Positions 15,401-62,653 of a stretch of DNA of 64,000 bases are shown here, in pieces. The stretch is from IMG/VR virus record IMGVR_UViG_3300030107_006644, positions 62,001 through 126,000 of that record; one strand, written 5' to 3'. Every line of letters starts with the position of its first letter. Positions within the stretch are counted from its first letter, which is position 1. The notes under the pieces were generated by a model that was not told the DNA's origin, ran no database searches, and worked only from the letters and a program-made list of their open reading frames with translations. Position numbers and translations under genes: made by a program. The DNA comes from a virus.

Positions 15401-16359
15401 ATGAGGTTGATGTCTTTTTGGGCAATACCACTACATCTCTTACAACTGTAGCAGGAAGCCTGAAGACTCAAGGAGATGAAGTCACTTTCGAGTCCGCCAA
15501 TTCGCTAGATCCGCTGGTTATTATCAAAAACACCACAAATGACACAAATGGCGCGCGCCTTCAGTTCGTAAAAGACAAAGGCGGCCCCGGCGCCGACAAC
15601 GATATTATTGGATCAATCCTATTCTATGGTGATGACGATGCGCAGCACAATATTGAATTTGCTTCTATTGTTGGTCAAGTGGCTGATGCTTCGAACAATA
15701 ACGAAGGTGGCCGTCTTCTGCTGAGGGTTGCCTCTCACGATGGAGAAGTGAACAACGGCCTAACGATTGAAGACGGGAGTTCCGAAGACGAAGTTAATGT
15801 TACAATTGCCAATGGACCGGGCTCCTCTACAACCATATCAGGTAACGCGATAGTTAACGGCGACCTCGAATTGGCAGAAAGCGTAGGCCAAGGCATGACT
15901 AAGCACTTGTGGCATCAGTCAGTCGATCTCCGCGCCTCTAGTGGTACCGACAACACGATCATCGCCGGCGGAGGCACTGACTTTAAAATTCCACAGTATT
16001 CAAGAATCGTCAGTGTATATGCGGTACCAACGGTAGCCTCAGATCAGACCAACTGTAATGTTGCAATTGTGTTGGATACAAATGGTTCTATTTCGGCGGG
16101 TAGTGGCGTGACCACCGGGATGAATACTGTAGAGGTTATTGGCGCCGGCGCTGCAGATTCAAGGTCTTACGATACGCAAGCCGGCGCATCGGACATTGAT
16201 TGTAAAAATGACGTTAAGAAGCCATGGTATTCTACCACGGCTAATTGGGCTGGAGCAGACATGTATGTTTATGTTGTCAATGCGGGCACTTCGAATGGTG
16301 GAGGATCACCCAGCGCAGGCTCAATTGAGATTTTCATCGAATATTATGGAATGGACTAG
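12406..16359 (+). CDS. repeat-rich fibre/adhesin-like structural protein, 1317 aa
   Basis: This long protein is built of repeated beta-rich modules of the kind found in phage fibres: DKVGIGTTSPKTKLTV at the N-terminus, SSTAAELNKLDGA blocks, and GNVSGLGTVGCGAIT turns. Two modules of 211 residues (nt ~12850-14115) are nearly identical. The last ~150 residues (from MTKHLWHQSVDLRA) are non-repetitive and may be the receptor-binding or trimer-clamping end. It lies between protease and scaffold genes, so it could be a head fibre as well as a tail fibre; the sequence does not decide. Confidence 0.8.
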   Translation: MGGFNKGGFSPSRVVNADLEVDGGTVSVDADNDKVGIGTTSPKTKLTVQGAVTVAEQDSRTAAGVTAGYGQIWVKDDNPCNLYYTDDAGNNVQITSGGSLAGVAGSLSGLGSTDNAIMRTNGTGGETAQGSGIIIDDSNNVSSMGTLGVGAITTSGVLDITDTTDSSNASGDTGALRVEGGASIAKKLYVGTDLDVDGTTNLDAVDIDGNVQLDGTLTIGANDAGYDVIFYGDAASANMTWDTSADDLILNGAARIVVPDGQLVLASTAVSSTAAELNKLDGADSNVTAAKLSTLSALSDAEIGYVDGAGTSVVASKAVVADSNKDVGTIRNLTIDGTFSDGNYTFDTSGNVSGLGTVGCGAITTSGVLDITDTTDSSDDSGDTGALRVEGGASIAKKLYVGTDLDVDGTTNLDAVDIDGNVQLDGTLTIGANDAGYDVIFYGDAASANMTWDTSADDLIFNGAARIVVPDGQLVLASTAVSSTAAELNKLDGADSNVTAAKLSTLSALSDTEIGYVDGAGTSAVASKVLVADANKDVGTIRNLTIDGTFSDGNYTFDTSGNVSGLGTVGCGAVTSTGALKIGSAAGSGVDAYLYTAGTAAHVGIQWDADGETEGILIGGADNHGVDFKFFGESSGKYVHWDMSGDELVLASSAKISFNDAGGGENVVASADGHLEINSGTTLDMTAPTVDINASTAVTVDTPGVTITDTTATSATEGGYVRLAADDGAVMANGHRLGVIEFAGAEDTSSTISVGARIEALCRDAWDGSNNDANLLFYTTDGTTQSEVLKLDADKKATFAGATQFNGTATFGVDDTGVDIRVFSATASEGLLYDASQDELGLLLTTKLSFHDIGGGENIHASEDGTLDLNAGTLLDVTAPTIDLNASTAVTIDGPVVTIADSAAGKPILTLKTTHTTKTSSSELQFLKDAADTEDGEVLGQITFYGEDEGNNNTQFVGIAAEIAESDDGAEGGKLSFRVASHDGELQSGLTILDGDAEDEVDVFLGNTTTSLTTVAGSLKTQGDEVTFESANSLDPLVIIKNTTNDTNGARLQFVKDKGGPGADNDIIGSILFYGDDDAQHNIEFASIVGQVADASNNNEGGRLLLRVASHDGEVNNGLTIEDGSSEDEVNVTIANGPGSSTTISGNAIVNGDLELAESVGQGMTKHLWHQSVDLRASSGTDNTIIAGGGTDFKIPQYSRIVSVYAVPTVASDQTNCNVAIVLDTNGSISAGSGVTTGMNTVEVIGAGAADSRSYDTQAGASDIDCKNDVKKPWYSTTANWAGADMYVYVVNAGTSNGGGSPSAGSIEIFIEYYGMD
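12850..14115 (+). repeat. two-copy tandem repeat of 633 bases in the fibre gene
   Basis: Landmarks recur exactly 633 bases apart: ACAACGTCTGGAGTGCTGG at 12862 and 13495, and CGGAACCTCACGATTGACGG at 13396 and 14029. The period equals 211 codons. Most differences between copies are synonymous, while some stretches are identical, which suggests duplication followed by patchy gene conversion. Confidence 0.85.
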
Positions 16360-16429
16360 GCAACTTAGCAAGTTCTTGATGCTACTTAGTGATGTCAACA
16401 CTATTTAATAGCAAAGGGAGAACATCTTA

Positions 16430-18076
16430 ATGGCTAGAACTGGTTGGGCTTATGTAGATTTCAGCTATTTGAGTTCTGTAACAGGCCCTACAGGCTCTGT
16501 ACAGTTCTTGGTAGACGAGAGTACACTTAGCGGAAGTCACCTGTTTGTTTATGACACAGGTTCAAATAGAGTTGGTATTGGACTTACCACATTCGACGGT
16601 GTAGGTGCGGGCCTGCCGACTCATCAGTTACATGTTGTCGGTGACGTATCTGTTACCGGCTCAATTTATGCCGATAACCACATCATTAAGAACGTTTCGC
16701 ACTTCTATTCTGACGGATCTAGTAATTTCGGCGATAGCACCGATGATCTTCACGAATTTACAGGATCGGTATCCATTACAAACGATTTGACGGTTGATAC
16801 AACTACCTTTTATGTTGATTCTACTAATAATCGAGTTGGTATCGGTACCGCATCCCCCACTTATGTTCTCGATGCTGCTGTTTCTGCTGCCGAGGCACTT
16901 AGAATTCAAGGCTCTACGGACGGCTTAGATGTAAACTGCGTAATTGAAAACAAAGGGACGTCATCAGGTGACGATACTTTATTGGCACTCTACGCAGAAC
17001 CCAACGCTGGAGATCCTTCACTAAGATTTGCAATTGCTGGCACCGAAACATGGTCTATGGGTATTGATAACTCGGACAACGACAAGCTTAAAATTTCTCA
17101 AGCGTCTACACTGCATACAGATACACGCCTTACAATAAAGCCCATGGGTAACGTAGGCATTGGAACGCCTGATCCTACTGATTTATTAACAGTGTCTGGT
17201 GTCACGTATGGATCCAGTGCGGGAATTCACATCGCCGCTGATCTCAATGATGACGCATATCTGGATTTAACTGAGCATAACGGTTCAGACGTAACGGCGT
17301 TTGGTGCCACGGATACTTTTGGTTTTAGAATTGCTTATGACGGCGCATCAGGAGTAGAGGCTCTGCAATTTAAGACTGGGAACGAAGCTACCGTTTATAC
17401 CAGAATGTCGATTAAGAGAGACACGGGATTTGTTCTCATTGGTGGTGGTGCTGCAACTGGACTATTGCATGTCAATGGCGCTGCAGCAACAGGTGCACCA
17501 ACATTAATAGTAGATCACGATGATGATGACCAGAAAGGCGCAGTCTTTAATATCGCTTCGAAATATGATGTCGGCATAGATATTAATTTATCAAACCTCG
17601 ACGCGAATGGTGTTGACATTTCTGCAGATGACGTAACGACAGCAAGCGCGATGCACATTTCCGCAGATAGCTTAACAACCGGTAATGTCCTCAAAATCAG
17701 CGGCACTGACGGAAAGACCGATTTAAAAATTGTGAGTTCAGCCGATAGCGGCGACTATTTTTCAATAGCAACAACGACGGCTGGTGCAACAACTATAACA
17801 ACAGTCGATGACGACGGCCAAGCAGCCGACCTTACATTTGACGTTGATGGAGATATTGTTTTAGGTCCCGCCGGCGGTGATGTTTTGCCCGATGCAGATA
17901 ACACTAGGAATCTTGGATCTGCTTCAAAACGTTGGGCCAATGTCTACACTGGCGACCTCCATCTTAAGAATGAACGTGGGGATTGGACGGTTGTCGAGGA
18001 ATCCGAATATTTAACCTTAGTAAACAACGCCAATGGTAAAAAATATAAGATTATGATGGAGGAGATTGAAGACTAA
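16430..18076 (+). CDS. fibre/adhesin-like structural protein, 548 aa
   Basis: The ATG follows AAAGGGAGAACATCTTA. Modules such as NRVGIGTASPTYVLDA and the block WSMGIDNSDNDKLKIS (also in the 1962-residue neighbour) place it in the same fibre family. The C-terminus (residues ~490-548, DADNTRNLGSASKRWANVY then DLHLKNERGDWTVVEE) is repeated almost whole as the next gene's 79-residue product. That end looks like a conserved capping or attachment domain. The stop overlaps the next start (TAATG), so the proteins are probably made together. Confidence 0.78.
   Translation: MARTGWAYVDFSYLSSVTGPTGSVQFLVDESTLSGSHLFVYDTGSNRVGIGLTTFDGVGAGLPTHQLHVVGDVSVTGSIYADNHIIKNVSHFYSDGSSNFGDSTDDLHEFTGSVSITNDLTVDTTTFYVDSTNNRVGIGTASPTYVLDAAVSAAEALRIQGSTDGLDVNCVIENKGTSSGDDTLLALYAEPNAGDPSLRFAIAGTETWSMGIDNSDNDKLKISQASTLHTDTRLTIKPMGNVGIGTPDPTDLLTVSGVTYGSSAGIHIAADLNDDAYLDLTEHNGSDVTAFGATDTFGFRIAYDGASGVEALQFKTGNEATVYTRMSIKRDTGFVLIGGGAATGLLHVNGAAATGAPTLIVDHDDDDQKGAVFNIASKYDVGIDINLSNLDANGVDISADDVTTASAMHISADSLTTGNVLKISGTDGKTDLKIVSSADSGDYFSIATTTAGATTITTVDDDGQAADLTFDVDGDIVLGPAGGDVLPDADNTRNLGSASKRWANVYTGDLHLKNERGDWTVVEESEYLTLVNNANGKKYKIMMEEIED
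17045..17133 (+). repeat. 89-base direct repeat shared with the next long fibre gene, copy 1
   Basis: This stretch matches 18966-19054 with 6 differences in 89 bases and encodes the same WSMGIDNSDNDKLKIS block. Such conservation between separate genes suggests recombination between fibre genes. Confidence 0.8.
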
Positions 18077-18315
18077 TGTCTATTGAGATCATCAGAAAAA
18101 AGAAAGTAGTACCTGCTTTGGACAACAAGACAGATCTTGGCGTTGACAAGCGCCGCTGGGCTAATATATACGCACACAACGTATATACAAACGATCTACA
18201 CCTTAAAAACGAACGTGGCGACTGGACTATTATCGAAGAGGAAGACTACTTATCTATAACGAACAATAAGACCGGAAAACGGTACAAATTTGTACTAGAG
18301 GAGATTGACGATTAA
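18076..18315 (+). CDS. stand-alone copy of the fibre C-terminal domain, 79 aa
   Basis: The start overlaps the previous stop (TAATG) and its own stop overlaps the next start in the same way. The sequence (KTDLGVDKRRWANIYAHNVY, then DLHLKNERGDWTIIEEEDY) is a divergent duplicate of the last ~60 residues of the preceding fibre protein. A single domain made alone between two long fibre genes could cap a trimer or join fibres. It is diverged at DNA level, so the duplication is not recent. Confidence 0.72.
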   Translation: MSIEIIRKKKVVPALDNKTDLGVDKRRWANIYAHNVYTNDLHLKNERGDWTIIEEEDYLSITNNKTGKRYKFVLEEIDD

Positions 18316-21300
18316 TGCCAATTTATACAACACACCTATCTTCGTCTGACGGCGCACAGATTACAGGCTCTTTAACTGTTTCAGGATCTAGTACCCTTAC
18401 GGTATATGGTCCAACTGTGCTTAACGCAGACCAAAACACAAGCCACGATCTGCAAGTAAAATCAGTCAACAAAGCTAATATGCTATATGTCGATTCTAGT
18501 ACCGATAGAGTGGGAATTGCGACTAATTCGCCCGCAGGAACGCTCGGCATCGACGGCGATTTGCACTTCCAACCAACAGCAATTTCCACCTCTCACATCA
18601 CCACTGCAGGCTCTCTGGATATTCGTGCAACCAACAACATGAAGATCGCAACAGATGGTGCAGACAGTGTGCGCATTGGACGAACTAACACGACCGCTGC
18701 AAAAATTTATATTCGTTCTGGTGCTGACAACGATCTCGTAATATCCGACTCTAAGGTTGGCATTGGAACGGATAGCCCTAGCTATAGCTTGGATGTTGAT
18801 CCTACTAGCGCATCCGCATTCAGAGTTAAAAACACTACAGCGGGCCTAGATGTAAACTGTGCAATAGAAAATACAGGCGATGACTCCGACGACGGCGTTT
18901 TGATGTCTTACACCGTTCAAGCCGGCGCCGGAGATCCGTCAGTAAGATTTGCCGTTGCTGGCAATGAAACATGGTCTATGGGCATTGACAATTCGGACAA
19001 CGACAAGCTTAAAATTTCTCAAGCGTCTACGTTGCATACAGATACGCGCCTTACGCTTGCTGGCAACAAAGTTGGCATCGGAGTCACCGATCCTGACACC
19101 ACCCTTGAGGTGTACAACGCTGGTACCCAACTTAAACTATCCTATAACGGTTCCGATCATGCAACTTTTGCTGTTGATGACGACGGAGACTTGACGATTG
19201 ACCCATCTGGTGACGCTGTAGTAATTACAGGAAACTTAACAGTTAATGGTACAACACAGACTATCAACACTACAAATACGGTCGTGAAGGACGGTCTTAT
19301 TGAGTTAAATAACGGCGCCACGTCCAACTCTAATGATTGCGGAATTGTAATTGAAAGAGGAAACACCGGCGACAATGCGATTATTGCATGGGATGAATCT
19401 GCAGATGGATTTGTTGTAGGAACAACTACAGCCACTGGCGCATCTACTGGAAACCTTACAATTAGTGCCGCACCCTTTGTTGCCTCGACAATCGAAGGTA
19501 CAGTTGTGAAGGGTACAACCTCTTTGCAAACCCCGCTGATTGAATATACAGACGGCGACGATGCTATTACGATTGCTGATGGCGGAGGGGTCACTTTCGG
19601 TGCTACTGCTGCTGTAACTGGCGTACTAACAGCTAATGCCGGAGTTGTTGTTGACAATATCACAATCGACGGAACAGAAATAGACCTTTCCTCTGGTGAC
19701 CTCACTCTTGATGTCGCTGGGGATATTATATTAAACGCTGATGGAGGCGAAGTGTCGGTTATAGACGATTCTGCTACGATAGCAGCGATCTCTAATCAGA
19801 GCGGCCAAGGCGAATTGAGACTTCATGAGGCTGCTAATTATGTTGGCTTCAAAGCACCAGCGCTTTCCGCTGATCAAATTTGGACACTACCAGCAGCTGA
19901 TGGCTCAAACGGCCAACAGCTCACTACAAATGGTTCGGGTGTGCTTTCTTGGGCCGCAGCCGGCAGTTCCGGTGGCGGAGCGACAGCTGCAGATGATATT
20001 GGCAACGGTGATGCAGCAGTCAACATTTTGACAACTAGCGGCAATATTACTTTAGATGCACAAGCCAACAATGCTGATATTATTTTCAAGGTTGATGACG
20101 ATGGTACCGCTGTCACTGCGCTCACCCTTGACGGCAGCGACGAAGGCAATGCAGTATTTGTCAACGATATTAAATTATCCTCAGATAGTGCGGCAATTCA
20201 CTTTGGCGCTGATAACGAGGTTACGCTTACTCACGATCACAACGTTGGTCTCAAACTTAAGCATACTGCAACTGCTGATGACAAACCCATTGTTCTTACT
20301 TTCCAGACTGGCGAAACGGACATAGCAGCAAACGATGTGCTTGGAGCCATTAACTTTGCGGCTCCTGACGAAGGTCAAGGAACTGACGCTGTTTTGGTCG
20401 CGGCTGGTATTGATGCAGTATCCGAAGGAGACTTTGCCAATAACAACAACGCAACTAAGCTTTCGTTCAAGACGGCAGCTTCGGAAGCAGCAACTGAAAA
20501 GATGTCATTAAGCTCCGCTGGATTGCTAACAGTTGCAGATGATATAGTGATCAAGGCTGATGGTACAATCGGAGGCGCTGATGATACAGATTTGATGACA
20601 TTAGGTGATGGCATACTTACGGTTGCTGGAGAAGTTCAGATGACTACCTTAGATATTGGCGGAGTCAATGTCACAGCTACCGCTGCCGAAATTAACCTTA
20701 TTGACGGCGGAACATCGAGAGGCACAACCGCCGTTGCTAATGGCGACGGCTTCTTACATAATGATGGTGGCACCATGCGAATGACCAACGTCAGCAAGAT
20801 GGCTGATTTGTTCGCAGGCACAGGAATTTCGGCCTCTAATGCCGTTCTCAGCATTGACGCGGCACAAACAGGGATCACTTCTCTTCTCGCCACAGACATT
20901 AAGATCGGTGAAGATGACCAAACAAAGATCGATTTTGAAACTGCCGATGAGATTCATTTCTATGCAGCAAATGCTCAAGAGATGATAGTGCAGGCAAATG
21001 TTGTCGCCCCCGGCGCCGATGACGGTACCGCTCTAGGGGATGCAAACCAGCGATGGTCTGACTTATTCTTAGCTTCCGGCGCCGTTATAAATTTCGATAA
21101 TGGAGATGTGACTTTAACTCATTCCTCCAATACTTTAACAGCAGCCGGCGGGACAGTCGCAACAGCAGCGTTAACAACGTCAACAATTGTTGCCAGCGGA
21201 ATCGTCAAGACAGACGACACCACAGACGCAACCAGCACTACAGATGGCTCGCTTCAAACCGATGGTGGCCTAAGCGTTGCCAAAGATGCTGTAATTGGCG

Positions 21301-24203
21301 ATGATTTGTACTTATTATCAGACAGTGCCGTGTTGGGCTTAGGCGCTGGCAAGGATGCTACATTTACTCACGATGGCACAACCGGCCTTACAATCGCAGC
21401 AACACCAATCTCAATTGATTCAACCGGCGAACTACACCTCAACTCAACAACTGGAGACATCAAGCTTCAAGATGGCGGCACCGATCAAATCGCATTTGAT
21501 CTAGACGGCACAGCCGGTGAAGTTATTATGAAACCAGCCGTTGATTCGGATGATATGGTTTTCTCTCAATACGATGGCACAGAAGTGATTCGTATTGAGG
21601 ATAATGCTTCTTTAGGCTTAGTGGGAAATAAATTAAATATTGCCAATAGCAGCGGCGATGTTATCATAAAGCCTCTCACAGATGCAAAAGATATTATATT
21701 CCAGCAATACGATGGTACTGAAGCTCTTCGCATCGACGATGACACAACTGTCAAAGTGGCCGTGGGCATCACTCCGGATGACTCCGATGGAGCGTATTTA
21801 GGTACTTCGTCGCTGCAATGGAGCGATCTGTTCTTGGCTGACGCTGCCACAATCAAGTTTGGCGATGATCAAGATATTATCTTAACACATGTTGCAGACA
21901 AAGGTCTCACGTTAAGTTCAGCTGCTTCAGGAATGCCAGAATTCATCTTGAAGAACACCAACAACGATGCTGCTGGTGGTCGAGTGGTCTTCCATAAAGA
22001 CGGAGCAAACGCTGCAGATAACGATATCTTGGGTGTTATTGACGCAGAAGGCGAAAACGACGCTGGCAGTCCCGAAACTATTATTTACGGTCATATCGAG
22101 TTCAGTTCTCCTGACATCAGTGATGGTTCTGAAGATGGTGCAATAGAACTTAAAACCATGGTTGGTGGTAGTGCTACAGCTCTTATAGACCTCAACAAGA
22201 CTCTGGCAGGTGGAGTTGCCGTACTTACTGATTTGCAAGTTGGTGATGATGTTAGCCTTAAATCTGATGGCGCCATCCTCAAGATGGGAGCCAATGAAGA
22301 GATCGCAATAACGCATGTTCATGATACTGGAATCTTGGTTACTGATTCAGGCGGCACACCCACTATCCAACTACATGATGCGAACGAGTCTATATCTTCC
22401 GATGGTTCAAAACTAATCCTTACATCCAATGGTGTTGCATTTTCTATGCCAACAGCTGATGGCTCAAACGGCCAGCAGCTTACTACCAATGGTTCGGGCG
22501 TTCTTTCTTGGGCAGCTGCAGGTTCTGGTGGCGGTACCTCGTTCTTCCTTGAAGACGGCGACGGTACCGAAGTTGAGATTGATGACGCGAAAGAAATTAA
22601 GTTTGTTGAAGGTAACGGAATTAATATTAACTGGACTGATACCTCAACCGGTGACGACGGCGATCCTTTTGATCTGACTTTTGAAGTTGCTGGTGCACTA
22701 ACGGGAGTAACCTCGCTGCTAGCAACTGATATCAAAATTGGTGAAGACGATGAGACCAAGATTGATTTCGCTACAGCAAATAGAATTAGAATTTATGCCA
22801 ACAACGCTGAGGCATTGGTACTTCACGGCGATGGAACGGATAGCACGTTTCGTCCAGCCACAGATGATAAGACGGCTCTCGGAAACGGCAGCTATAAGTT
22901 CTCCGATTTATTTTTGGCATCTGGCGGCGTGATTAACTTCAACAACGGCAATACGGATATTACACACAGTAGCAATACGATAACAATGAATGCAAACTCT
23001 GTTGTTACATCTGCCGACTTTACGGTTGGCGATGACTTGAGTGTCACGGATAATGTATCGCTAACTTCCGACTCCAGTTTTATTCAAATGGGCGCCGGCA
23101 ACGATGTTACGATTACTCACGACGGAACAACTGGTGTGACCATTGCGGCAAGTCCAATTATTCTCGATTCTGGCGCCGCTATTGAACTTGATACAGCAAC
23201 GGGAGATATAAAGCTTTCTGATGCGGGAACCGAACAATATCACATTGATTTGGATAGTTCCGCAGGCGCAATTATATTCGAACACTTAATTGATGGGGAT
23301 GATACTGTCTTCCGTCGCCATGGATCCGATGAAATAGCTCGCTTTACGGATGAAAGAAGTTTGGACTTCTTGCACGACGACCTAACTGTTATGAATTTTG
23401 GCGCAAACAAAGACATCACGCTATCGCACAATCACGATGTTGGCTTGACAATCACGAATACTCTCACTGGCGCCAGTAAGCCGATTATTTTAACTCTCAA
23501 GTCGTCTGAAGCCAATGTTGCAACGGGAGATACGGTTGGCGAAATTCACTTTAAGGGCAGCGACAACAGCAACGGGGATGCCCTCTTGACCTGTGCGGCC
23601 ATTTCGGCGATGGCTACGGCCAACCACACGGCTAGCAGCAACGCAGCTGCCCTGCTTTTCAAAACGGGTAATTCCGAGGCGGCCACCACAAAAATGTCGA
23701 TTGGGTCTAACGGCCGTGTTGGAATCGGTACAGACGCTGAGAACATGACACCGGATAATGCTCTGGAAATTGTGGATGATGGCGTTGCTTCCGGCCAGCT
23801 TAAACTATCTTACGATGCTAGCAACGGTGTGACAGCAGGTTCCGACTCAGTTGGTAACTGTGCAATTGCTCCCATGGGCACGATGATCTTCAATTCGTAT
23901 GCTGCTGTTAACGCAGCCGGCGACGATCAGGGAAGTGCGGCTGACTTAACAAAGTATTATAATGGTATCTCTGGAGCAGATGGAACTAAGGGTGTAGAAC
24001 TTCCAACCGGAGCTATTACCGGAATGACAATTCATGTCATGAATCAGGGAGGCTCTAACTTAAAGGTGTATCCTCCTACCGGCCAAGCAATTAATGCTGG
24101 AAACGCTAATGCGGCCTGCACTCTGAGCGGCGGTGCGTGGGTCATGTTCATCTACAGCGGCAACAATACGTGGAACAGTTTCGGCGCCGTAACCGGTCCA
24201 TAA
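18315..24203 (+). CDS. giant fibre/adhesin-like structural protein, 1962 aa
   Basis: This is the longest gene of the window. The protein is a chain of beta-rich modules: VGIATNSPAGTLGIDGD near the N-terminus, WSMGIDNSDNDKLKIS, a twice-used SNGQQLTTNGSGVLSW block (nt ~19905 and ~22467), TAAEINLIDGGTS, and many repeats around HDGTTGLTIAATPI. The end (residues ~1880-1962) is a compact domain with GGSNLKVYPPTGQAIN and a Trp-rich finish. No enzymatic motif is seen. Translation is probably coupled to the upstream gene (TAATG). A long host-contact fibre is the most likely role. Confidence 0.8.
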   Translation: MPIYTTHLSSSDGAQITGSLTVSGSSTLTVYGPTVLNADQNTSHDLQVKSVNKANMLYVDSSTDRVGIATNSPAGTLGIDGDLHFQPTAISTSHITTAGSLDIRATNNMKIATDGADSVRIGRTNTTAAKIYIRSGADNDLVISDSKVGIGTDSPSYSLDVDPTSASAFRVKNTTAGLDVNCAIENTGDDSDDGVLMSYTVQAGAGDPSVRFAVAGNETWSMGIDNSDNDKLKISQASTLHTDTRLTLAGNKVGIGVTDPDTTLEVYNAGTQLKLSYNGSDHATFAVDDDGDLTIDPSGDAVVITGNLTVNGTTQTINTTNTVVKDGLIELNNGATSNSNDCGIVIERGNTGDNAIIAWDESADGFVVGTTTATGASTGNLTISAAPFVASTIEGTVVKGTTSLQTPLIEYTDGDDAITIADGGGVTFGATAAVTGVLTANAGVVVDNITIDGTEIDLSSGDLTLDVAGDIILNADGGEVSVIDDSATIAAISNQSGQGELRLHEAANYVGFKAPALSADQIWTLPAADGSNGQQLTTNGSGVLSWAAAGSSGGGATAADDIGNGDAAVNILTTSGNITLDAQANNADIIFKVDDDGTAVTALTLDGSDEGNAVFVNDIKLSSDSAAIHFGADNEVTLTHDHNVGLKLKHTATADDKPIVLTFQTGETDIAANDVLGAINFAAPDEGQGTDAVLVAAGIDAVSEGDFANNNNATKLSFKTAASEAATEKMSLSSAGLLTVADDIVIKADGTIGGADDTDLMTLGDGILTVAGEVQMTTLDIGGVNVTATAAEINLIDGGTSRGTTAVANGDGFLHNDGGTMRMTNVSKMADLFAGTGISASNAVLSIDAAQTGITSLLATDIKIGEDDQTKIDFETADEIHFYAANAQEMIVQANVVAPGADDGTALGDANQRWSDLFLASGAVINFDNGDVTLTHSSNTLTAAGGTVATAALTTSTIVASGIVKTDDTTDATSTTDGSLQTDGGLSVAKDAVIGDDLYLLSDSAVLGLGAGKDATFTHDGTTGLTIAATPISIDSTGELHLNSTTGDIKLQDGGTDQIAFDLDGTAGEVIMKPAVDSDDMVFSQYDGTEVIRIEDNASLGLVGNKLNIANSSGDVIIKPLTDAKDIIFQQYDGTEALRIDDDTTVKVAVGITPDDSDGAYLGTSSLQWSDLFLADAATIKFGDDQDIILTHVADKGLTLSSAASGMPEFILKNTNNDAAGGRVVFHKDGANAADNDILGVIDAEGENDAGSPETIIYGHIEFSSPDISDGSEDGAIELKTMVGGSATALIDLNKTLAGGVAVLTDLQVGDDVSLKSDGAILKMGANEEIAITHVHDTGILVTDSGGTPTIQLHDANESISSDGSKLILTSNGVAFSMPTADGSNGQQLTTNGSGVLSWAAAGSGGGTSFFLEDGDGTEVEIDDAKEIKFVEGNGININWTDTSTGDDGDPFDLTFEVAGALTGVTSLLATDIKIGEDDETKIDFATANRIRIYANNAEALVLHGDGTDSTFRPATDDKTALGNGSYKFSDLFLASGGVINFNNGNTDITHSSNTITMNANSVVTSADFTVGDDLSVTDNVSLTSDSSFIQMGAGNDVTITHDGTTGVTIAASPIILDSGAAIELDTATGDIKLSDAGTEQYHIDLDSSAGAIIFEHLIDGDDTVFRRHGSDEIARFTDERSLDFLHDDLTVMNFGANKDITLSHNHDVGLTITNTLTGASKPIILTLKSSEANVATGDTVGEIHFKGSDNSNGDALLTCAAISAMATANHTASSNAAALLFKTGNSEAATTKMSIGSNGRVGIGTDAENMTPDNALEIVDDGVASGQLKLSYDASNGVTAGSDSVGNCAIAPMGTMIFNSYAAVNAAGDDQGSAADLTKYYNGISGADGTKGVELPTGAITGMTIHVMNQGGSNLKVYPPTGQAINAGNANAACTLSGGAWVMFIYSGNNTWNSFGAVTGP
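18966..19054 (+). repeat. 89-base direct repeat shared with the preceding fibre gene, copy 2
   Basis: Partner of 17045-17133, 1921 bases downstream, with 6 differences, so the two fibre genes could exchange sequence here. Confidence 0.8.
19886..19956 (+). repeat. direct repeat within the giant fibre gene, copy 1
   Basis: About 70 bases encoding ADGSNGQQLTTNGSGVLSW recur at ~22448-22518 with mainly synonymous changes. Confidence 0.75.
22448..22518 (+). repeat. direct repeat within the giant fibre gene, copy 2
   Basis: Partner of 19886-19956, about 2.56 kb downstream in the same gene and in the same frame. Confidence 0.75.
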
Positions 24204-45639: not shown

Positions 45640-47001
45640 ATGAGCGATAAAACAAACTACAATGATGCAGAGATGTGGCCAAAGCATGAATATGATTTCC
45701 GCGCAGCCAACTCCCAAAGCACGCGAACGTTGTTTGATCAGCGCAAGAGCTATCGTGACAGGGCTCTTTATGATGGGGCACAATTGTCCTTTCACCAAGG
45801 TACGATTGACTTGCTGGCTGATGAAAAGATGACCTTCTATGGTCGCATCGATAACGACGACACGCCTAGGTACCTTAAATTTTCGCATATGAAGTCGTTC
45901 GACCTTTCGGTTCTTGAGCCCGGCGCTGGGCTCTCCGGAAAGATCCATGCGATTAATTTTGCTGTTGATGCGTTTACAGACATGGTAGCCGAACTTCGAA
46001 AAATGGTTACCGTATCGCATTGCGGACTGCAGGAAGGAGATCTCTCTCTAAAACCCAAACAAGGGAGAGTTGACAGCTACGAATCAGCACAGAGAATATT
46101 TGGAACACAAGTGTTGAGAGACTTCAACAATTATTCAACTCGCCCAACACAGGAGTTGACCGGCGCCGGTAAGCTTGATAAGATTAGAACTTTCGATGAT
46201 CTGGTTAAGCATTTTCTTGAATTTTTGGATTCGAAAAGCGGACTCTCGATGCCGGTCACACACACGGGCACCATGCTACACCCAGCCGGCTCTATACAGA
46301 TGACCGGCTTGGCGATCTTGCTAGAGGTCGACGACCAGTCGAACGATGCAAACAAAACAACGTTCTTGAATAGTGAGTTTTTCGACCTATATCGCAGATT
46401 GGCTATCAAGTACGGGTTCCTTGTTGACCGCAATTGCCCATGGCGACTGATTGCAGATATACAATCGCCGCAAATGAAAAAGTATATGGACAACTATGAG
46501 ATCACGGTAAACAACTTGTTCGATGAATGCTATATTAAAGCTTATGATTTAGATCTTGAACTTATCAAGAAGCAACTTCTTTCCTTGTGGAACACCTTGG
46601 CGACCAACTATCCAAAATATTCGTTGCGAAGCAATGGTTGCGGCTCCGGATTAGCCCATAGAGAGAGGCTTACGGCCGACGAACTCGACAAGACATACGG
46701 TGATGCTTATTGGATTCCAGTTTATGTCAAACTTAGAAACGCAGAGGCTCAGTCGAACCTGAGTAAGGTTTCGATAGCAAGGATTCAAAAACATGCAGCA
46801 GAGTTAACAAAAGCACTTGACATATCGGCCGCAATGGAGTATATTAATAGTCAGTTCCAGCGATTTTTCCTCAAACAGAGAATGGGTGGGAGAAAATTCA
46901 TGCCTTTTAACAACTTGGAAGCGGAAGAACAAAGTGACCAAGAACTCAAACGACAAATCGCTATAAGTTCCGGAGGAAATGGTGCTATTTCAGGTTATTG
47001 A
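45640..47001 (+). CDS. conserved tail-region structural protein of unknown role, 453 aa
   Basis: The protein opens with KHEYDFRAANSQSTRTLFDQ and RKSYRDRALYDGAQLSFHQG, and contains KYGFLVDRNCPWRLIADIQS (residues ~248-267) and WIPVYVKLRNAEAQ (~362-375). It resembles long structural proteins found beside the baseplate genes of marine T4-like phages, whose exact place in the virion I do not know. The start has only a weak ribosome site. Its last 23 bases overlap the DNA polymerase gene, so tail and replication modules meet without a gap. Confidence 0.55.
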   Translation: MSDKTNYNDAEMWPKHEYDFRAANSQSTRTLFDQRKSYRDRALYDGAQLSFHQGTIDLLADEKMTFYGRIDNDDTPRYLKFSHMKSFDLSVLEPGAGLSGKIHAINFAVDAFTDMVAELRKMVTVSHCGLQEGDLSLKPKQGRVDSYESAQRIFGTQVLRDFNNYSTRPTQELTGAGKLDKIRTFDDLVKHFLEFLDSKSGLSMPVTHTGTMLHPAGSIQMTGLAILLEVDDQSNDANKTTFLNSEFFDLYRRLAIKYGFLVDRNCPWRLIADIQSPQMKKYMDNYEITVNNLFDECYIKAYDLDLELIKKQLLSLWNTLATNYPKYSLRSNGCGSGLAHRERLTADELDKTYGDAYWIPVYVKLRNAEAQSNLSKVSIARIQKHAAELTKALDISAAMEYINSQFQRFFLKQRMGGRKFMPFNNLEAEEQSDQELKRQIAISSGGNGAISGY

Positions 47002-48169
47002 TAACAAAGATGAATGCTTGGGTTATTATGCTGATGATAAGATTACGATAGACCAGACGGTACCAGAGAGTCTGTTTCAAACGTGGAACTATTCTGGCAT
47101 TTTATCAGATCGCACAGATATTGAGTACGCAAAGTTGTTTTGCGGAGGCTTGAACTTGGATGAGGCATGCCCAGAAGACTATATGGACAAATGGCTGTCC
47201 ACAAACGAAAGGTTGAAGGCTTACTTTAGATCCTTTATTGAGGCGAAGGTTTCGATGGATGATAACTGCTTTTTTCAGTTAGTGCCTCATACGTTTCTGC
47301 AGCAATACTATGAGGGACGCAATAGAATTACGGAACATGTCTTCGACACGTACCAGAGGCCAGAAAACTACAGCTTCTTGGTGGAGTTGTCGAAAATGAC
47401 CACAGAAATATCTAAACAAAGGATCAACGTTGATCACGCTAGATTGGTCGAGTATATGCACACAACTGCAGGCCGAAATTTTGTCAACAAGATCAAAAGA
47501 ACAGAGCCATACTGCAAGTACAACATATTTGGCACAAAGACCGGTCGACTGTCTACTGCTAAAGATAGTTTCCCCATTCTGACGATGAATAAGTTGTTTA
47601 GGGGAATCATAAAAGCCAATAATGATTTTCTTATCGAACTCGACTTTAATGCTGCAGAGTTGCGTACTCTTTTATCGCTCTGCGGAGAAGACCAGCCGCA
47701 AGAAGACTTGCATGACTGGAATCTCAAAAAGCTATACAAGGGGAAGGGCACCAGAGAGGAGGCAAAGAAGAAGATCTTTGCTTGGCTCTACAATCCGGAC
47801 TCTGAAGCGGGAGTGGCGGATAAATTTTATGATCGCGAGTACGTAAAGATGATTTACTGGAACAAGGACAAAGTTCACACTCCGTTTCAAAGAGTGATAC
47901 CTTGCGATGAACACCACTCTATTTCCTACATCATACAAAGTACGTGTTCTGACAACACCTTAAGGCAGATGATAAAGCTATGGAAACTTCTTGAGGGGCG
48001 CAAGTCTTATGTAGCTTTCACTATGCACGATAGCGTAGTTGTTGATTTTTCGAAGGAAGACCGAGATCTTCTATATGACATCCTTATGGAATTTAGAGAA
48101 ACCGATCTGGGCGAGTATGTCATTAACGTCAAGTGTGGCGAGAACTACGGAGAAATGAGGGAACTATAA
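46979..48169 (+). CDS. compact family-A-type DNA polymerase
   Basis: Residues 180-360 carry the family A polymerase motifs: TGRLSTAKDSFPIL; motif A LDFNAAELRTLL (D222, E227); motif B TREEAKKKIFAWLY with R259, K263, F267 and Y271 at the spacing of E. coli Pol I R754, K758, F762 and Y766; and motif C FTMHDSVVVDF (H350, D351). In motif C the usual acidic residue after D is Ser, and motif B has Asn for Gly after Tyr. At 396 residues it lacks an exonuclease domain and most of the thumb. T4 itself uses family B gp43. Translation starts at ATG or GTG 46979/46982 after GGAGG. Confidence 0.82.
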   Translation: MVLFQVIDNKDECLGYYADDKITIDQTVPESLFQTWNYSGILSDRTDIEYAKLFCGGLNLDEACPEDYMDKWLSTNERLKAYFRSFIEAKVSMDDNCFFQLVPHTFLQQYYEGRNRITEHVFDTYQRPENYSFLVELSKMTTEISKQRINVDHARLVEYMHTTAGRNFVNKIKRTEPYCKYNIFGTKTGRLSTAKDSFPILTMNKLFRGIIKANNDFLIELDFNAAELRTLLSLCGEDQPQEDLHDWNLKKLYKGKGTREEAKKKIFAWLYNPDSEAGVADKFYDREYVKMIYWNKDKVHTPFQRVIPCDEHHSISYIIQSTCSDNTLRQMIKLWKLLEGRKSYVAFTMHDSVVVDFSKEDRDLLYDILMEFRETDLGEYVINVKCGENYGEMREL

Positions 48170-49023
48170 TGAATCTAATAGCACTAGGAGATACAGCAAC
48201 TAAAATAGCGGAGGCCTTTTTACAATACCCTCAGTACAAGGTGCGCACAATTAGTTCGTCGCAGAATACCAAGACGCCCCATTATAAGTTGTCTAGTTTT
48301 TCAACACCGGAAGAGTATGAGGAGCGTTGCCCCATGCAAGAGATAGGATTCTTTCTTGGAAACGTTGAAGCTGAAACAATCTTTGTTACATGCGGTGCAG
48401 ATTATGAGTCTGCGTGCTCTTTGCGTATCCTTGAGCAGGTGACCAAGGGATCCTCTGTAAAGGTTTTATATATTGAACCAGAGGTAGAGACTTTGCAGGA
48501 TACTGCAATCTTATTAGAGAGAAGTGTCCGGTCGGTTCTGCAGGAGTATGCTCGTTCCGGAGTGTTCAGTGAAATAGTGCTTGTCTCTGTGCCTCAAGCC
48601 CGCTTAGTACTCGGAGATGTGTCGATCTTGGAGTACGAACAAAAGCTAAATGAATTGGTGGCATCCACGATTCACATGATAAACGTTTTTAGGCATTCGG
48701 ATCCGATATACAATAGCCAACTTAAACATAAGGATGTTTCAAGGATCTCTACTATTGGCATGGCCTCGCTTAAAAATAATGAAGAAAGTTTGCTTTACCC
48801 CCTTGACAACGTGAAGGAAAAGAGATATATTTATTCTATATCCAAAGATTCGTTGGAGAACGACAACAAGCTTATGAGCAAGATAACAGAGCAGGTCAAA
48901 AATTCTGCAGAAAAAGATAAAATAAAAGCTGGATTTGAGGTATACTCATCAGAGTACGATGACAATTATGTGTACGTGGTAGCGCGTACATCTTTTATAC
49001 AAGAACAGTGGGAGAAAGCATGA
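48169..49023 (+). CDS. divergent FtsZ/tubulin-like protein
   Basis: The start overlaps the polymerase stop (TAATG). The 284-residue protein follows the FtsZ fold order: an N-terminal strand and loop (MNLIALGDTATKIAEAF), a VTCGADYESACS segment at residues 73-84 where FtsZ has its GGGTGTG loop, KVLYIEPEVETLQDTA, a long central helix (ERSVRSVLQEYARSG), and a C-terminal domain with DVSRISTIGMASL and a final YVYVVARTSF strand. The glycine-rich GTP loop is degenerate, so GTP binding is doubtful. The fold is inferred from motif order and not tested. It is made next to DNA polymerase, so it may organise replication or DNA position. Confidence 0.55.
   Translation: MNLIALGDTATKIAEAFLQYPQYKVRTISSSQNTKTPHYKLSSFSTPEEYEERCPMQEIGFFLGNVEAETIFVTCGADYESACSLRILEQVTKGSSVKVLYIEPEVETLQDTAILLERSVRSVLQEYARSGVFSEIVLVSVPQARLVLGDVSILEYEQKLNELVASTIHMINVFRHSDPIYNSQLKHKDVSRISTIGMASLKNNEESLLYPLDNVKEKRYIYSISKDSLENDNKLMSKITEQVKNSAEKDKIKAGFEVYSSEYDDNYVYVVARTSFIQEQWEKA
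48803..48831 (+). promoter_or_regulatory. sigma70-type promoter inside the FtsZ-like gene
   Basis: TTGACA (48803-48808), 17 bases, then TATATT (48826-48831). It shares TTGACAAC and GATATATTTAT with the promoter at 49553. It is placed to serve the two small genes from 49020 about 190 bases downstream. Confidence 0.65.
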
Positions 49024-49274
49024 AAACATACACCGGCGTTTTTATAAAGAAGAACGGTGAAGAAAGAGAGATGAACTTCGTTAAGGTAGAAGACCTGCCA
49101 AGCGAGTTCTTGGAAACCAAGATTACTGGCAAGCGAAAGAAGGTCAACTTGTCGGAAGGTTTGGAGTTGGTTTGGGATCTGGAACATTCTGAGTTTCGAA
49201 TCTTTAACTGGAACACAGTAAGGGGGAATGTAGTTGAAAAAGATCTGGAAAACGATACAAGATTCTTGGTTTAG
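49020..49274 (+). CDS. small SH3-barrel-like protein
   Basis: ATG 49020 overlaps the previous stop (ATGA) behind GTGGGAGAAAGC. The 84-residue protein (YTGVFIKKNGEEREMNFVKV, DLPSEFLETKITG, SEGLELVWDLEHSEFRIFNW) has the strand pattern of small phage proteins described as SH3 beta-barrels with a conserved W-D and FNWNTV end. Function unknown; it may bind nucleic acid or protein. Confidence 0.6.
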   Translation: MKTYTGVFIKKNGEEREMNFVKVEDLPSEFLETKITGKRKKVNLSEGLELVWDLEHSEFRIFNWNTVRGNVVEKDLENDTRFLV

Positions 49275-49661: not shown

Positions 49662-50438
49662 ATGGCAATTGACATGAAGAAAATTCGAGCCCGCAAGGTG
49701 GCTCTTGAGAGTCGAGGAGGGGGGTCGTCTAACTTTTGGCGTCCGCAAGATGGCGAACAGACAATTCGTATCGTCCCGACTGCGGACGGAGATCCTTTTA
49801 AGGATTATTGGTTCCACTATAATGTTGGAAACAACTCGGGCTTTTTGAGTCCCAAGAAGAACTACGGAGAAGACGATCCTCTTGATGCGTTTGTCCGTAA
49901 GCTTTTCAATGAGGGCACGGAGGACAGCGTGAAGATGGCCAAGAGTCTTATGGCTCGCCAACGTTTCTTTGCTCCCGTTATTGTGCGGGGTGAGGAAGAT
50001 AAAGGTGTGCGAGTCTGGGGATTCGGCAAGACTGTGTACGAGCAGTTGATTAATCTCGTACTAAACCCAGAGTATGGAGACATCACAGATTCGGATACGG
50101 GTACGGATTTGGTTCTCCATTATGGCAAGCCCCCGGGCGCGTCATTTCCACTCACCAAGATCACTCCCCGGCGCCGCCCAAGTGTGTTATGCGATGAGGC
50201 CGTAGGAGGATCCGCTCGGTGTGCTGAGCTGTTGGAAAATATTCCAGACTTTACCAATCTGTTTGAGCGTAAGACTCCTGCAGAGGTCGGTGGATTGCTG
50301 GATGCTTTCCTGCTCGGGGATGACGGTGCGGAGGAAAACTCCACTGAGACCACTAAGTATGGTGGTACCACGGAGACTACTCCCCCGACTACGACGAGTA
50401 GCGTAGATCGTGCGTTCGATGAGCTAATGAGCGTTTAG
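49662..50438 (+). CDS. 32: single-stranded DNA-binding protein (gp32-like)
   Basis: This protein coats single-stranded DNA in replication, recombination and repair. The 258-residue product has a basic N-terminus (MKKIRARKVALE) for cooperative binding, then SNFWRPQDGEQTIRIVPTAD, FHYNVGNNSGFLSPKKNYG and MARQRFFAPVIVRGEED, the gp32 core pattern. The T4 zinc-binding residues are not evident. After residue ~218 comes an acidic, Thr-rich linker ending VDRAFDELMSV, the partner-binding tail. It has its own strong promoter and terminator, as expected for a protein made in large amounts. Confidence 0.88.
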   Translation: MAIDMKKIRARKVALESRGGGSSNFWRPQDGEQTIRIVPTADGDPFKDYWFHYNVGNNSGFLSPKKNYGEDDPLDAFVRKLFNEGTEDSVKMAKSLMARQRFFAPVIVRGEEDKGVRVWGFGKTVYEQLINLVLNPEYGDITDSDTGTDLVLHYGKPPGASFPLTKITPRRRPSVLCDEAVGGSARCAELLENIPDFTNLFERKTPAEVGGLLDAFLLGDDGAEENSTETTKYGGTTETTPPTTTSSVDRAFDELMSV

Positions 50439-50505: not shown

Positions 50506-51618
50506 ATGGCTAGGACCAAAAATAAGGCCGGCAAACTTTCCATTGCCGATATGCGCTCGCTGATTAACAAGAAGGCGGGCCAAGTTGTAGCCCACAACTT
50601 AAACGAGGAGAATCCAACCGAAGTTGTTGACTGGATTCCGACTGGCTCTCGCTGGCTGGACTCCATTACATGTCGCGGCAGACTGGCTGGGATTCCCGTG
50701 GGTAAAATTGCTGAAATCGCAGGACTAGAAGCTACTGGTAAATCATATATGGCTGCACAAGTGGCGGCCAACGCACAGAAGATGGGTATTGACGTGGTGT
50801 ATTTTGATAGCGAGTCCGCTATTGACCCGTCGTTCCTTGAGCGCGCCGGCTGTAAACTAGATGAACTACTATATGTGCAGGCTTCTTCTGTAGAATTCGT
50901 ATTGGAAACCATTGAAGAACTGTTGGGCTCCAATGATAATCGCATGCTGTTTGTATGGGATTCGTTAGCCCTGACCCCATCGGTTTCCGATGTTGAGGGA
51001 GACTTCAACCCTCTCTCGTCCATGGCGGTTAAAGCCCGCATCTTGGCTAAGGGAATGTCTAAGCTCACAGTACCGATTGCGAACTCTCAGAGCACGTTCC
51101 TTGTACTCAACCAGCTTAAGACTAACATTACTCGTTCTCCATCTGAAGCTATGACAACGCCCTATATGACGCCGGGAGGAAAGGCTATGATTTATGCATA
51201 CTCCCTTCGAATCTGGCTCACCGGCCGAAAGGCCAAGGCTAGTTTCATTGTCGATGACAATGGTTATCGAATAGGTTCAGAGGTCAAGGTCAAACTAGAG
51301 AAATCGCGGTTTGGAACGCAAGGAAGGCAGTGCAACTTTAAGATCCTGTGGGGCGATGAAATCGGAGTACAGGATGAGGAGTCATGGTTCGATGCAATTG
51401 CAGGATCGTCCAGACTGCAGCGTTCGGGTGCATGGTATACCCTGTTGGACAAGGATGGCAAGCCTCTTGGCAGCAAATTCCAAGCAACCAAGTGGACGGA
51501 GAGGCTTCAGGATGAAACGTTTCGCAAGACCGTGCTGGATATTATGGACGAAGAGGTGATCTTAAAGTTCGATCAGAGAGTTGGGCCTGCAGAAGAATTT
51601 TACGGAGACGTTGAATAA
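50506..51618 (+). CDS. uvsX: RecA-like recombinase (UvsX)
   Basis: UvsX forms filaments on single-stranded DNA and exchanges strands. The 370-residue protein shows Walker A GLEATGKS (residues 73-80), YFDSESAIDPSF (99-110), Walker B RMLFVWDSLALT (146-157), and the loop region FLVLNQLKTNI then TPGGKAMIYAYSLRIWL, as in T4 UvsX (391 aa) and RecA. ATG 50506 is used; ATG 50502 is in another frame. A hairpin follows the stop. Confidence 0.93.
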   Translation: MARTKNKAGKLSIADMRSLINKKAGQVVAHNLNEENPTEVVDWIPTGSRWLDSITCRGRLAGIPVGKIAEIAGLEATGKSYMAAQVAANAQKMGIDVVYFDSESAIDPSFLERAGCKLDELLYVQASSVEFVLETIEELLGSNDNRMLFVWDSLALTPSVSDVEGDFNPLSSMAVKARILAKGMSKLTVPIANSQSTFLVLNQLKTNITRSPSEAMTTPYMTPGGKAMIYAYSLRIWLTGRKAKASFIVDDNGYRIGSEVKVKLEKSRFGTQGRQCNFKILWGDEIGVQDEESWFDAIAGSSRLQRSGAWYTLLDKDGKPLGSKFQATKWTERLQDETFRKTVLDIMDEEVILKFDQRVGPAEEFYGDVE

Positions 51619-52006: not shown

Positions 52007-52028
52007 ATAGTGTGTGGAGGTTTTTATT

Positions 52029-52988
52029 ATGAAAAGAGTACTGATTATCGATGCCCTTAATATGTATTTTAGGGCTTACATTGTAGATCCAAGTTTGTCG
52101 ACTAACGGACAGCCGATTGGCGGCGTCAAGGGTTTTCTCAAGATACTGCAGAAGCAGATTAGAGAAAGCAAGCCCGATGAGGTTGTCATCTGCTGGGATG
52201 GCGAAGGTGGAAGCCAACGTCGGAAGAGTCAAGACAAGGGTTACAAGCAGGGTCGCAAACCAATTCGTCTCAACCGGGACATACGCAACTTGTCCGAGGT
52301 TGAAGAAATGGAAAACAAGGTTTGGCAGCAAACACAATTGTTTGAATACTTAAACCAACTACCAGTGATCCAAACAATGCTTCCAGCGGTTGAGGCCGAC
52401 GATGTTATCTCGTTTGTGACCCAATACCACAAGTATGATGACTGGCAAAAGGTTATTGTCTCCTCAGATAAGGATTTCTTTCAGCTTTGCGATGAGCACA
52501 CCGTATTATATCGGCCCATCCAGAAGCAGGTGCTAAATTCGAAGAGGATTACGGAGGATTTTGGCATCCATCCAGTTAATTTTGCTTTGGCTAGAGCTAT
52601 TGTGGGTGATCGTAGCGACAACCTTCCCGGCATTGCAGGTATTGGCTTGTCTACCGTTTCTAAACGCTTGCCGTTTTTAATTGAGGGCAAGTCCTACACT
52701 ATTGATGAGGTTATAGAGTACTGCGAGAACACTGATGCTAAAATTAAAGCTTATGGGACAATTGTAGAGCAACGAGAAGTGATCGAACACAACTATAAGA
52801 TGATGCAACTGTATGCTCCGTCGATTAGCGTGCAAGGCAAGCAAAAAGTGCGCCACGCTCTCGATAACTTTGTTCCAGAACTTAACCAGACTGAGTTCAA
52901 GAAGATGATGGTTAACGATGGCTTCGGAGTGGTCGACTTCTCAGATTTATTTGCATCCATGAAAAGAATTGTGGCCAACAACGCTTAG
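52029..52988 (+). CDS. rnh: 5'-3' exonuclease / RNase H (FEN family)
   Basis: T4 RNase H removes RNA primers from Okazaki fragments. The 319-residue protein has the FEN metal-binding order: VLIIDALNMYFRAY (residues 4-17), EVVICWDGEG (51-60), AVEADDVISF, VSSDKDFFQL, and VGDRSDNLPGIAGIG, the helix-hairpin-helix approach to DNA. ATG 52029 follows TGGAGGTTTTTATT; an earlier in-frame GTG at 52014 overlaps that site and is not used. Confidence 0.9.
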   Translation: MKRVLIIDALNMYFRAYIVDPSLSTNGQPIGGVKGFLKILQKQIRESKPDEVVICWDGEGGSQRRKSQDKGYKQGRKPIRLNRDIRNLSEVEEMENKVWQQTQLFEYLNQLPVIQTMLPAVEADDVISFVTQYHKYDDWQKVIVSSDKDFFQLCDEHTVLYRPIQKQVLNSKRITEDFGIHPVNFALARAIVGDRSDNLPGIAGIGLSTVSKRLPFLIEGKSYTIDEVIEYCENTDAKIKAYGTIVEQREVIEHNYKMMQLYAPSISVQGKQKVRHALDNFVPELNQTEFKKMMVNDGFGVVDFSDLFASMKRIVANNA

Positions 52989-58998: not shown

Positions 58999-59456
58999 AG
59001 CTCCTACTTGAAAATTGGCGGAAGTATTTGAAAGAGGTTTCTATGGGCCGCGATATGACAAGCTCTATAGAATACACAGCCTTAGTGCTCGACAACGATT
59101 CGCATGAGAGGCTAGCCGTATACGCTCCAGAAGGGTGGAAAGTTATTGCCCACCATATGACAATCATCAGGCCTCACGAAATGAAAAGTGGTCGGCTACC
59201 AAGCCAATGGCTGGACTTTGAGGGATGCTTTGAAGTAACGCATATCGCTCAAAATGAGCAAGTCATGACTGCTCTGGTTGATCTTGGAGATACACCAATA
59301 CCGATGAAAGGGCCAGTCATGCCGCATGTCACTATTGCCACCAACCCGGAAACAGGTGGGAAGGCGTACATGTCCAACGATATTCCAATTACAAGCTTTG
59401 AAGAATTGTCGGAACCAATCAGCATATGCGGCGCCGTCGAGGAGGTGTTTAGATGA
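58995..59456 (+). CDS. 2H phosphoesterase with putative capsid-targeting peptide
   Basis: Two H-x-T motifs, AHHMTIIRP (H54-x-T56) and MPHVTIATN (H111-x-T113), at the usual spacing mark the 2H phosphoesterase fold, which cleaves cyclic phosphodiesters. The T4 anti-CBASS protein Acb1 belongs to this superfamily; others act on RNA ends. The first 14 residues MKLLLENWRKYLKE match the cassette peptide with L-K-E|V as a possible gp21 site. GTG start overlapping the previous stop; the next gene overlaps its stop (ATGA). The substrate is not known. Confidence 0.78.
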   Translation: MKLLLENWRKYLKEVSMGRDMTSSIEYTALVLDNDSHERLAVYAPEGWKVIAHHMTIIRPHEMKSGRLPSQWLDFEGCFEVTHIAQNEQVMTALVDLGDTPIPMKGPVMPHVTIATNPETGGKAYMSNDIPITSFEELSEPISICGAVEEVFR

Positions 59457-61241: not shown

Positions 61242-61276
61242 AGTATTGGTGTATAACTATAACATTTGGAGTGCCC

Positions 61277-62653
61277 GTGTCTGAGACCCGTAGTGCAGAC
61301 TTTTCTAGATTTGGCAAATCCTTCCAAGAAGGCTTGTGTCAACTGATCATGCAAGATCGCCCGTTTGCTGATCAGATAGGCGAAGTATTAGATATAGGGT
61401 ATTTTGAACTCAAATATTTGCAAGTCTTTGTGCAGTGTGTGTTGTCGTATAAAGAGAAGTACAACGTACATCCCACGTCGAAGATTATGACAACCCTGCT
61501 TCGTACCGAAATAGATGATCAAAACGAGGCAACAAAAAAGCAGGTCCGAGACTTCTTTGCCCGGATTTACGAAACGGAGGTTGACGGCAACCAGTATATT
61601 AAAGAGACGGCGCTTGATTTTTGCAGGAAGCAGAACCTCAAGAACGCCATGATTAAATGTGTGCCGCTGCTGGAAGAGTCGTCTTTTGACGAAATCAGTT
61701 CGATTCTCAACTCATCACTAAAGCTTGGCCTGTGTAACGACTATGGATACGATTACCTAAAAGATTTCGAAGAGAGGTTCAAGTTTAAGCCAAGAAATCA
61801 AGTAAATACAGGATTTGAAGAGATTGATACGATTTCTAAGGGTGGCCTAGGGCAGGGCGAGTTGGGCGTAATCATTGCTCCCACTGGGGCTGGAAAATCT
61901 ATGGTGCTGGTGCACTTGGGCACTGAAGCGTTAAAAGCAGGTAAGACTGTCGTACATTATACGCTTGAGCTACAGGATGTTTCTATTGCCTCTAGGTACG
62001 ACAGTTGCCTTTCGGGGGTTCCGCTATCGGATCTGAATTCCTTTAAAGAAATGATATATGAAAAGGTGCAAGACACTCCGGGCCGACTAATTATTAAAGA
62101 GTATCCAACAAAGTCTGCGTCAGCTAAGACGTTAGGGGCTCATTTAGAGAAGCTAAAACAGCGCGGCGTAGAGGTGGATATGATAATTGTTGACTACGGG
62201 GACTTGCTGAGACCCAGTACCGCACATAGAGAAAGGAGGCATGACTTGCAGTCAATTTATGAAGAGTTAAGAGCTATTGCACAAGAGGTTCGCGCTCCGG
62301 TCTGGACCGCTTCACAAACCAATCGCTCTGGACTTAACGCAGAAGTTATCACGATGGAATCGATTAGCGAAGCTTTCAGCAAGTGTTTTGTTGCTGATTT
62401 TATCTTTTCGCTATCCAGAACAATCGAGGATAGAAACAGCAATGTAGGCAGAGTGTTCGTTGCAAAGAATAGATTTGGACCAGATGGGATAATCTATCCA
62501 ATTTATATGGATACTTCGCGCGTAAAGATAAAGGTGTATCCGAGCAACGGAGATACGCCCGGGGATGTGATGGCGAAGAGCGCGAAAGAACAGTCAGAAC
62601 TTCTCAAAGAGAAGTACAAAAAATTTAGAAAGGAAGAAAACGGGAGCAAATGA
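61277..62653 (+). CDS. 41: replicative DNA helicase (gp41-like, DnaB family)
   Basis: This hexameric helicase unwinds the fork ahead of polymerase. The RecA-type motor domain starts at NTGFEEIDTISKGGLGQGEL, with Walker A APTGAGKS (residues 201-208) and Walker B DMIIVDYGDLL, then VWTASQTNRSG and VFVAKNRFGPDG. The N-terminal ~165 residues are the helical hexamer domain. GTG 61277 is chosen because GGAG is 5 bases upstream; GTG 61271 overlaps this site. Length (458) is close to T4 gp41 (475). Confidence 0.9.
   Translation: MSETRSADFSRFGKSFQEGLCQLIMQDRPFADQIGEVLDIGYFELKYLQVFVQCVLSYKEKYNVHPTSKIMTTLLRTEIDDQNEATKKQVRDFFARIYETEVDGNQYIKETALDFCRKQNLKNAMIKCVPLLEESSFDEISSILNSSLKLGLCNDYGYDYLKDFEERFKFKPRNQVNTGFEEIDTISKGGLGQGELGVIIAPTGAGKSMVLVHLGTEALKAGKTVVHYTLELQDVSIASRYDSCLSGVPLSDLNSFKEMIYEKVQDTPGRLIIKEYPTKSASAKTLGAHLEKLKQRGVEVDMIIVDYGDLLRPSTAHRERRHDLQSIYEELRAIAQEVRAPVWTASQTNRSGLNAEVITMESISEAFSKCFVADFIFSLSRTIEDRNSNVGRVFVAKNRFGPDGIIYPIYMDTSRVKIKVYPSNGDTPGDVMAKSAKEQSELLKEKYKKFRKEENGSK

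Follow-up and report, generated by a model that had tools for sequence, protein, structure and literature searches.

The window, which is the whole 64,000-nucleotide stretch analysed here, is part of a 205,517-base virus record whose terminase is nearest to that of Immutovirus (45%), then to that of Microcystis phage Mel-JY01 (41%), with the T4-like cyanophages more distant. Within it we found an unbroken open reading frame of 284 residues, running from an ATG at 48169 to a TGA at 49021–49023, to which we give the working name TubL. It lies among the following replication genes:

45640–47001, + strand: conserved protein of 453 aa directly 5' of the polymerase, syntenic in almost all relatives
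46979–48169, + strand: family A DNA polymerase domain, 396 aa (PHROG 17, E 2.8e-18; Pfam DNA_pol_A, E 1.1e-8)
48169–49023, + strand: TubL, predicted tubulin/FtsZ-fold protein, 284 aa (intact ORF, AF2 model, Foldseek, family)
49020–49274, + strand: small protein after TubL (WYL_2/Sm-like match, E 0.0078, below the cut-off)
49662–50438, + strand: single-strand DNA binding protein (SSB; PHROG 1192, E 1.7e-22), syntenic in relatives
50506–51618, + strand: UvsX-like recombinase (PHROG 97, E 8.7e-54), syntenic
52014–52988, + strand: 5'-3' exonuclease, FEN-like (PHROG 107, E 1e-27), syntenic
61271–62653, + strand: putative replicative helicase (Walker motif and place in relatives)

The polymerase stop codon, TAA (48167–48169), shares one base with the ATG of TubL, and the TubL stop overlaps the start of the next gene (49020) as ATGA. 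These overlaps make translational coupling of TubL to both of its neighbors plausible. Because relatives with 35–43% identity hold the same position in well over a hundred contigs, TubL is not a chance reading frame; by its sequence and the AF2 model, it ends about 10 residues past the last strand. The upstream polymerase looks active, since D222 of motif A, K263 of motif B, and D351 of motif C are invariant or nearly so across 101 aligned sequences. A 3'-5' exonuclease domain could not be recognised in it. The protein at 45640–47001 has no PHROG match and may be another component of the polymerase–TubL module. The small protein at 49020–49274 is present again in part of the relatives, and Immutovirus has DnaB annotated at the position equivalent to the helicase.

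The gene order unknown–polA–TubL–SSB–UvsX–exonuclease–helicase recurs in almost every locus whose flanking sequence is long enough. The first-pass annotation had placed a tubulin-like protein next to a DNA polymerase, and this adjacency extends across the family: the partner is a family A polymerase, and in 115 of 131 loci the two genes are at most about 40 nt apart and mostly overlap, with at least one gene or a few hundred bases separating them in the remainder. The reverse search, by polymerase profile, found TubL downstream in 80 of 80 retrieved loci, these being the best-scoring polymerase matches and belonging to one clade. TubL is therefore in fixed linkage to the polymerase and to the replication genes that follow. 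Immutovirus and Microcystis phage Mel-JY01 have a comparable module with no TubL detectable between polA and SSB, which indicates that the partnership is specific to the TubL clade and its polymerase type.

Phages that have a related polymerase and lack TubL encode a different protein of about 130–150 aa between the polymerase and SSB, with the motif HRKKxxNTxYTINxLN (L142:1346–1801, L140:13675–14064, L141:11764–12171). Immutovirus has two family A polymerases, a short one in the replication module (L142:1–1326) and a full-length one with an exonuclease domain (L142:37898–40231).

Other features of the window were also observed. A near-identical start peptide, MKLLxENWRRFxxE, is found on several otherwise different proteins starting at 53009, 56354, 56988, 58360, 58995, and 59453 (+ strand), as well as in L054, L056, L061, L100, and L109. 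In most cases an (I/L)-x-E site resembling the T4 prohead protease consensus comes next, and the peptide has the look of a tag that would target internal head proteins to the capsid. The tagged protein at 59453 is protein-kinase-like, and a nucleotidyltransferase-like protein (60424) carries a weaker version of the peptide. The region 12406–24203 (+ strand) holds large structural genes with long near-identical internal repeats, for example TNLDAVDIDGNVQLDGTLTIGANDAGYDVIFYGDAASANMTWD.

Successive searches of IMG/VR with single proteins and alignments returned 8, then 214, then at least 594 stretches matching TubL, and the family is carried by a large, widespread, uncultured group of phages. The window copy is among the most divergent members, with the longest end branch in the tree, and shares no more than 43% identity with any other. 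Three different members searched by tblastn against 50,697 INPHARED phage records gave no match, and one peptide-pattern scan over 84,980 prokaryote genomes gave no relative. The literature searched, which was open-access only and in which absence is no proof of novelty, holds no description of the family. The first-pass annotation had also proposed a sensitive profile search, and here the outcome was mixed. Neither single proteins nor alignments of 9 and 35 members found anything significant among the Pfam, PHROGs, and PDB profiles, so that the fold is not shown by sequence search alone. The direct alignment by hhalign of the TubL profile with eight FtsZ sequences was end-to-end and in register, with a global score of 14.7 as compared to 3.0 ± 2.2 in 100 column shuffles (maximum 10.5), and a local score of 21.8 that barely exceeded the shuffle maximum of 21.6. 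A rotation control for this alignment was set aside, as it retains genuine local matches. The relation between TubL and FtsZ at the sequence level is thus no more than suggestive.

Structure prediction carries the assignment of the fold. A template-free AF2 model of the window copy, made from an 88-sequence alignment, reached pLDDT 95.8 and pTM 0.92; an earlier model from 9 sequences had pLDDT 70, and its Foldseek matches were already FtsZ. Among the 691 PDB matches of the 88-sequence model at E ≤ 1e-3, the best 42 are all FtsZ (E 3.8e-12, 317–320 columns, TM up to 0.71), and TubZ follows at rank 43 (E 4.1e-10, PDB 2xka). In BFVD, the top match is a phage “FtsZ cell division GTPase” (E 3.5e-11, TM 0.78), and PhuZ (E 1.6e-6) is one of eight matches below 1e-3. 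The model has an N-terminal Rossmann-type domain, a central helix H7, and a C-terminal domain, which is the tubulin order. Since the matches to FtsZ and TubZ are full-length, the predicted tubulin/FtsZ fold is well supported. The FtsZ/tubulin-like reading of 48169–49023 given by the first-pass annotation was borne out: FtsZ, TubZ, and PhuZ were all matched where a different fold might have emerged, and the first loop, the position of GGGTGTG at residues 71–84, and the order of segments that it had named agree with the model.

The nucleotide site and the most conserved residues map to the following positions, for which conservation was counted per residue over 130 nonredundant members:

48181–48210, + strand: T1 loop, residues 5–14, ALGDTATKIA (family GLGxAGCNIA), by conservation counts
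48391–48420, + strand: T4 position, residues 75–84, CGADYESACS, by profile alignment with FtsZ (GGGTGTGAAP)
48541–48558, + strand: Q125 ... R129-S130 at the end of helix H5, invariant in the family by conservation counts
48589–48591, + strand: position 141, V in the window and N in the family, aligned with the FtsZ T6 Asn
48625–48693, + strand: helix H7, residues 153–175, with E157, N161, and H169, by AF2 model and conservation

Several elements of the GTPase are lost from the family as a whole. The T4 signature GGGTGTG(S/T)G is missing in the window copy and altered throughout the family, where this loop is mostly (S/G)G(S/A)GxISGAS and falls two residues short of its FtsZ counterpart. The alignment with FtsZ shows no T3 GAGANP loop, no T7 motif NxDxx(D/E) follows H7, and helix H8 is absent, the model running from H7 (153–175) to a strand at 193–199 without a helix. 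Other parts of the site are largely kept: G7 of T1 is found in 129 of 130 members and G10 in 126, Asn141 at the start of H6 (aligned with FtsZ IPND) in 121, and N161 on H7 in 123, while position 157 is mostly aromatic (Y, F, H, or W). The equivalent positions of FtsZ and tubulin contact the guanine. The window copy has A5 and A10 in T1, and in its pocket G10 is replaced by A, N141 by V, and the aromatic residue 157 by E, with G7 and N161 kept. The first-pass claim that the GTP signature is lost in this protein therefore needs dividing: the loss of GGGTGTG is real and family-wide, whereas the loss of Gly10, Asn141, and the aromatic 157 is specific to the window copy. Eight further nonredundant members lack N141, N161, or both. 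Because one pocket-loss clade (L042, L131, and L136) stands apart from the window member in the tree, the guanine pocket was probably lost at least twice. Judged from these sequences, the term “non-GTPase” fits TubL, which has no GGGTGTG, T7 element, or H8; at the level of the fold it belongs with the tubulin superfamily, while the signature loop and T7 that define the GTPases FtsZ, PhuZ, and TubZ are not found in it.

A second set of residues is conserved more strictly. Q125, R129, and H169 are present in all 130 nonredundant members, including the 9 without N141 and/or N161, and S130 (129 of 130), M170 (126), and N172 (123) are nearly as constant; R129, S130, and H169 are retained in every member that has lost the pocket, the window copy included. 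From secondary structure and fold topology, the C-terminal ends of H5 and H7 would lie on the bottom face of the protein. In FtsZ, it is this face that docks on the nucleotide bound by the neighboring subunit. Its conservation without the catalytic loop suggests that in TubL the face either still makes a head-to-tail contact or serves to dock a partner.

We propose that TubL is an accessory subunit of the phage replisome that has the tubulin fold and works independently of GTP, a reading of its function that we regard as evenly balanced. TubL would be translated together with the short, exonuclease-less family A polymerase and would most likely bind the polymerase or its nearest partners, serving as a structural tether, a scaffold, or a processivity element. 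It would probably self-associate or dock via its bottom face (the ends of H5 and H7; Q125, R129, S130, and H169). For its ancestor, a guanine nucleotide was probably either a switch or a cofactor with a structural role, and since the pocket is lost in the window copy, this protein should function without GTP. Synteny alone could be explained by shared timing of expression.

A stronger form of the proposal, in which nucleotide-free TubL would be an obligate subunit of the polymerase holoenzyme, a processivity or tethering factor replacing the sliding clamp in T4-like phages, can be offered only tentatively. The sliding clamp profile PF02916 had no match in the 205 kb record, and neither a second family A polymerase nor a family B polymerase was matched there; these searches had no positive control in this genome, the one for family A missing even the known gene, and the lack of matches does not establish absence. 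A single AAA match elsewhere in the genome looks MoxR-like and does not resemble a clamp loader.

It is rather unlikely, in our judgement, that TubL forms nucleotide-dependent filaments of the PhuZ/TubZ type that position replicating phage DNA, the window copy being a divergent member perhaps aided by other subunits. Known phage tubulins centre DNA (PMC4244570, PMC3678025), the fold matches FtsZ, TubZ, and PhuZ alike, and the T1 glycines and the guanine-aligned Asn are kept in 121–126 of 130 members. However, the whole family lacks GGGTGTG, the T3 GAGANP loop, T7 NxDxxD, and H8, the nine nonredundant members without the pocket still hold the TubL gene, and the sequence has no long C-terminal tail of the PhuZ kind.

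We consider it improbable that TubL is a sensor of guanine or another nucleotide, metabolic or signalling, which tunes the polymerase and of which the window copy would be a constitutive variant. Most members conserve N141, N161, and the aromatic 157 while having none of the catalytic elements, and TubL is coupled to polA, as might be expected of such a sensor, but conservation of the phosphate-binding loop is poor. Still less likely is a decoy role, in which TubL would join or cap the FtsZ protofilaments of the host and so block division during infection. Phage-encoded FtsZ inhibitors are a known strategy, and FtsZ is the nearest solved fold; yet TubL is about 10% identical to FtsZ, its bottom surface bears a family-specific invariant set and not T7/H8, and its gene is linked with the polymerase, not with genes for host takeover. 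The reading of TubL as an ordinary NAD-binding Rossmann protein with no tubulin kinship was dropped as highly improbable. It would account for the GxGxxG loop and for weak Pfam matches of single members to NAD domains, TrkA_N among them (best E 0.0046), but the fold search favours FtsZ by many orders of magnitude across both domains, including H7 and the C-terminal domain, and NAD-type viral folds appear only at E ~1e-3 to 1e-2.

Against the known systems, the proposed replisome subunit is most like FtsZ, its best PDB match, in the whole fold and the order of segments and, in most relatives, in the T1 loop and the Asn and aromatic positions at H6/H7. Apart from the missing GTPase elements and the low identity already described, it differs in having no C-terminal linker or conserved tail peptide and in sitting in a phage replication module, whereas FtsZ sits with division genes. 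PhuZ, the TubZ of phiKZ, is likewise a phage-encoded tubulin fold tied to phage DNA biology, but known PhuZ proteins have a C-terminal tail and a GTPase site that remains competent (PMC3678025), whereas TubL has no GTPase elements, and PhuZ phages are phiKZ-like, nucleus-forming jumbo phages, whereas the TubL phage is T4-like with a family A polymerase and UvsX. The plasmid partition protein TubZ (PDB 2xka) shares the fold; it is longer, GTPase-competent, and paired with TubR, and has no polymerase link. The closest viral predicted structure, A0A6J5RW92 of an uncultured Caudovirales phage (TM 0.78 on the query), has 452 aa and is 14% identical to TubL.

In the literature that we found, phage tubulins occur only in phiKZ-like nucleus-forming phages and in TubZ systems (PMC3678025, PMC4244570, PMC9123017, PMC13282480), and a survey of marine jumbo phages reports tubulin in the phiKZ-like group only (PMC9123017). 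As far as we found, those described either form GTP-driven filaments in phiKZ-like phages or serve in plasmid partition. TubL is a large, unannotated, polymerase-linked family without the GTPase machinery, some members of which have lost the guanine pocket while an invariant surface remains, and R129, S130, and H169 offer defined residues for testing its function. These results suggest that a cytoskeletal fold was recruited into the machinery that copies DNA. If this shift of the tubulin fold to a use in replication, which we infer, is true, it would give the fold a further use within the DNA replication machine, one that involves no filament or needs no GTP.
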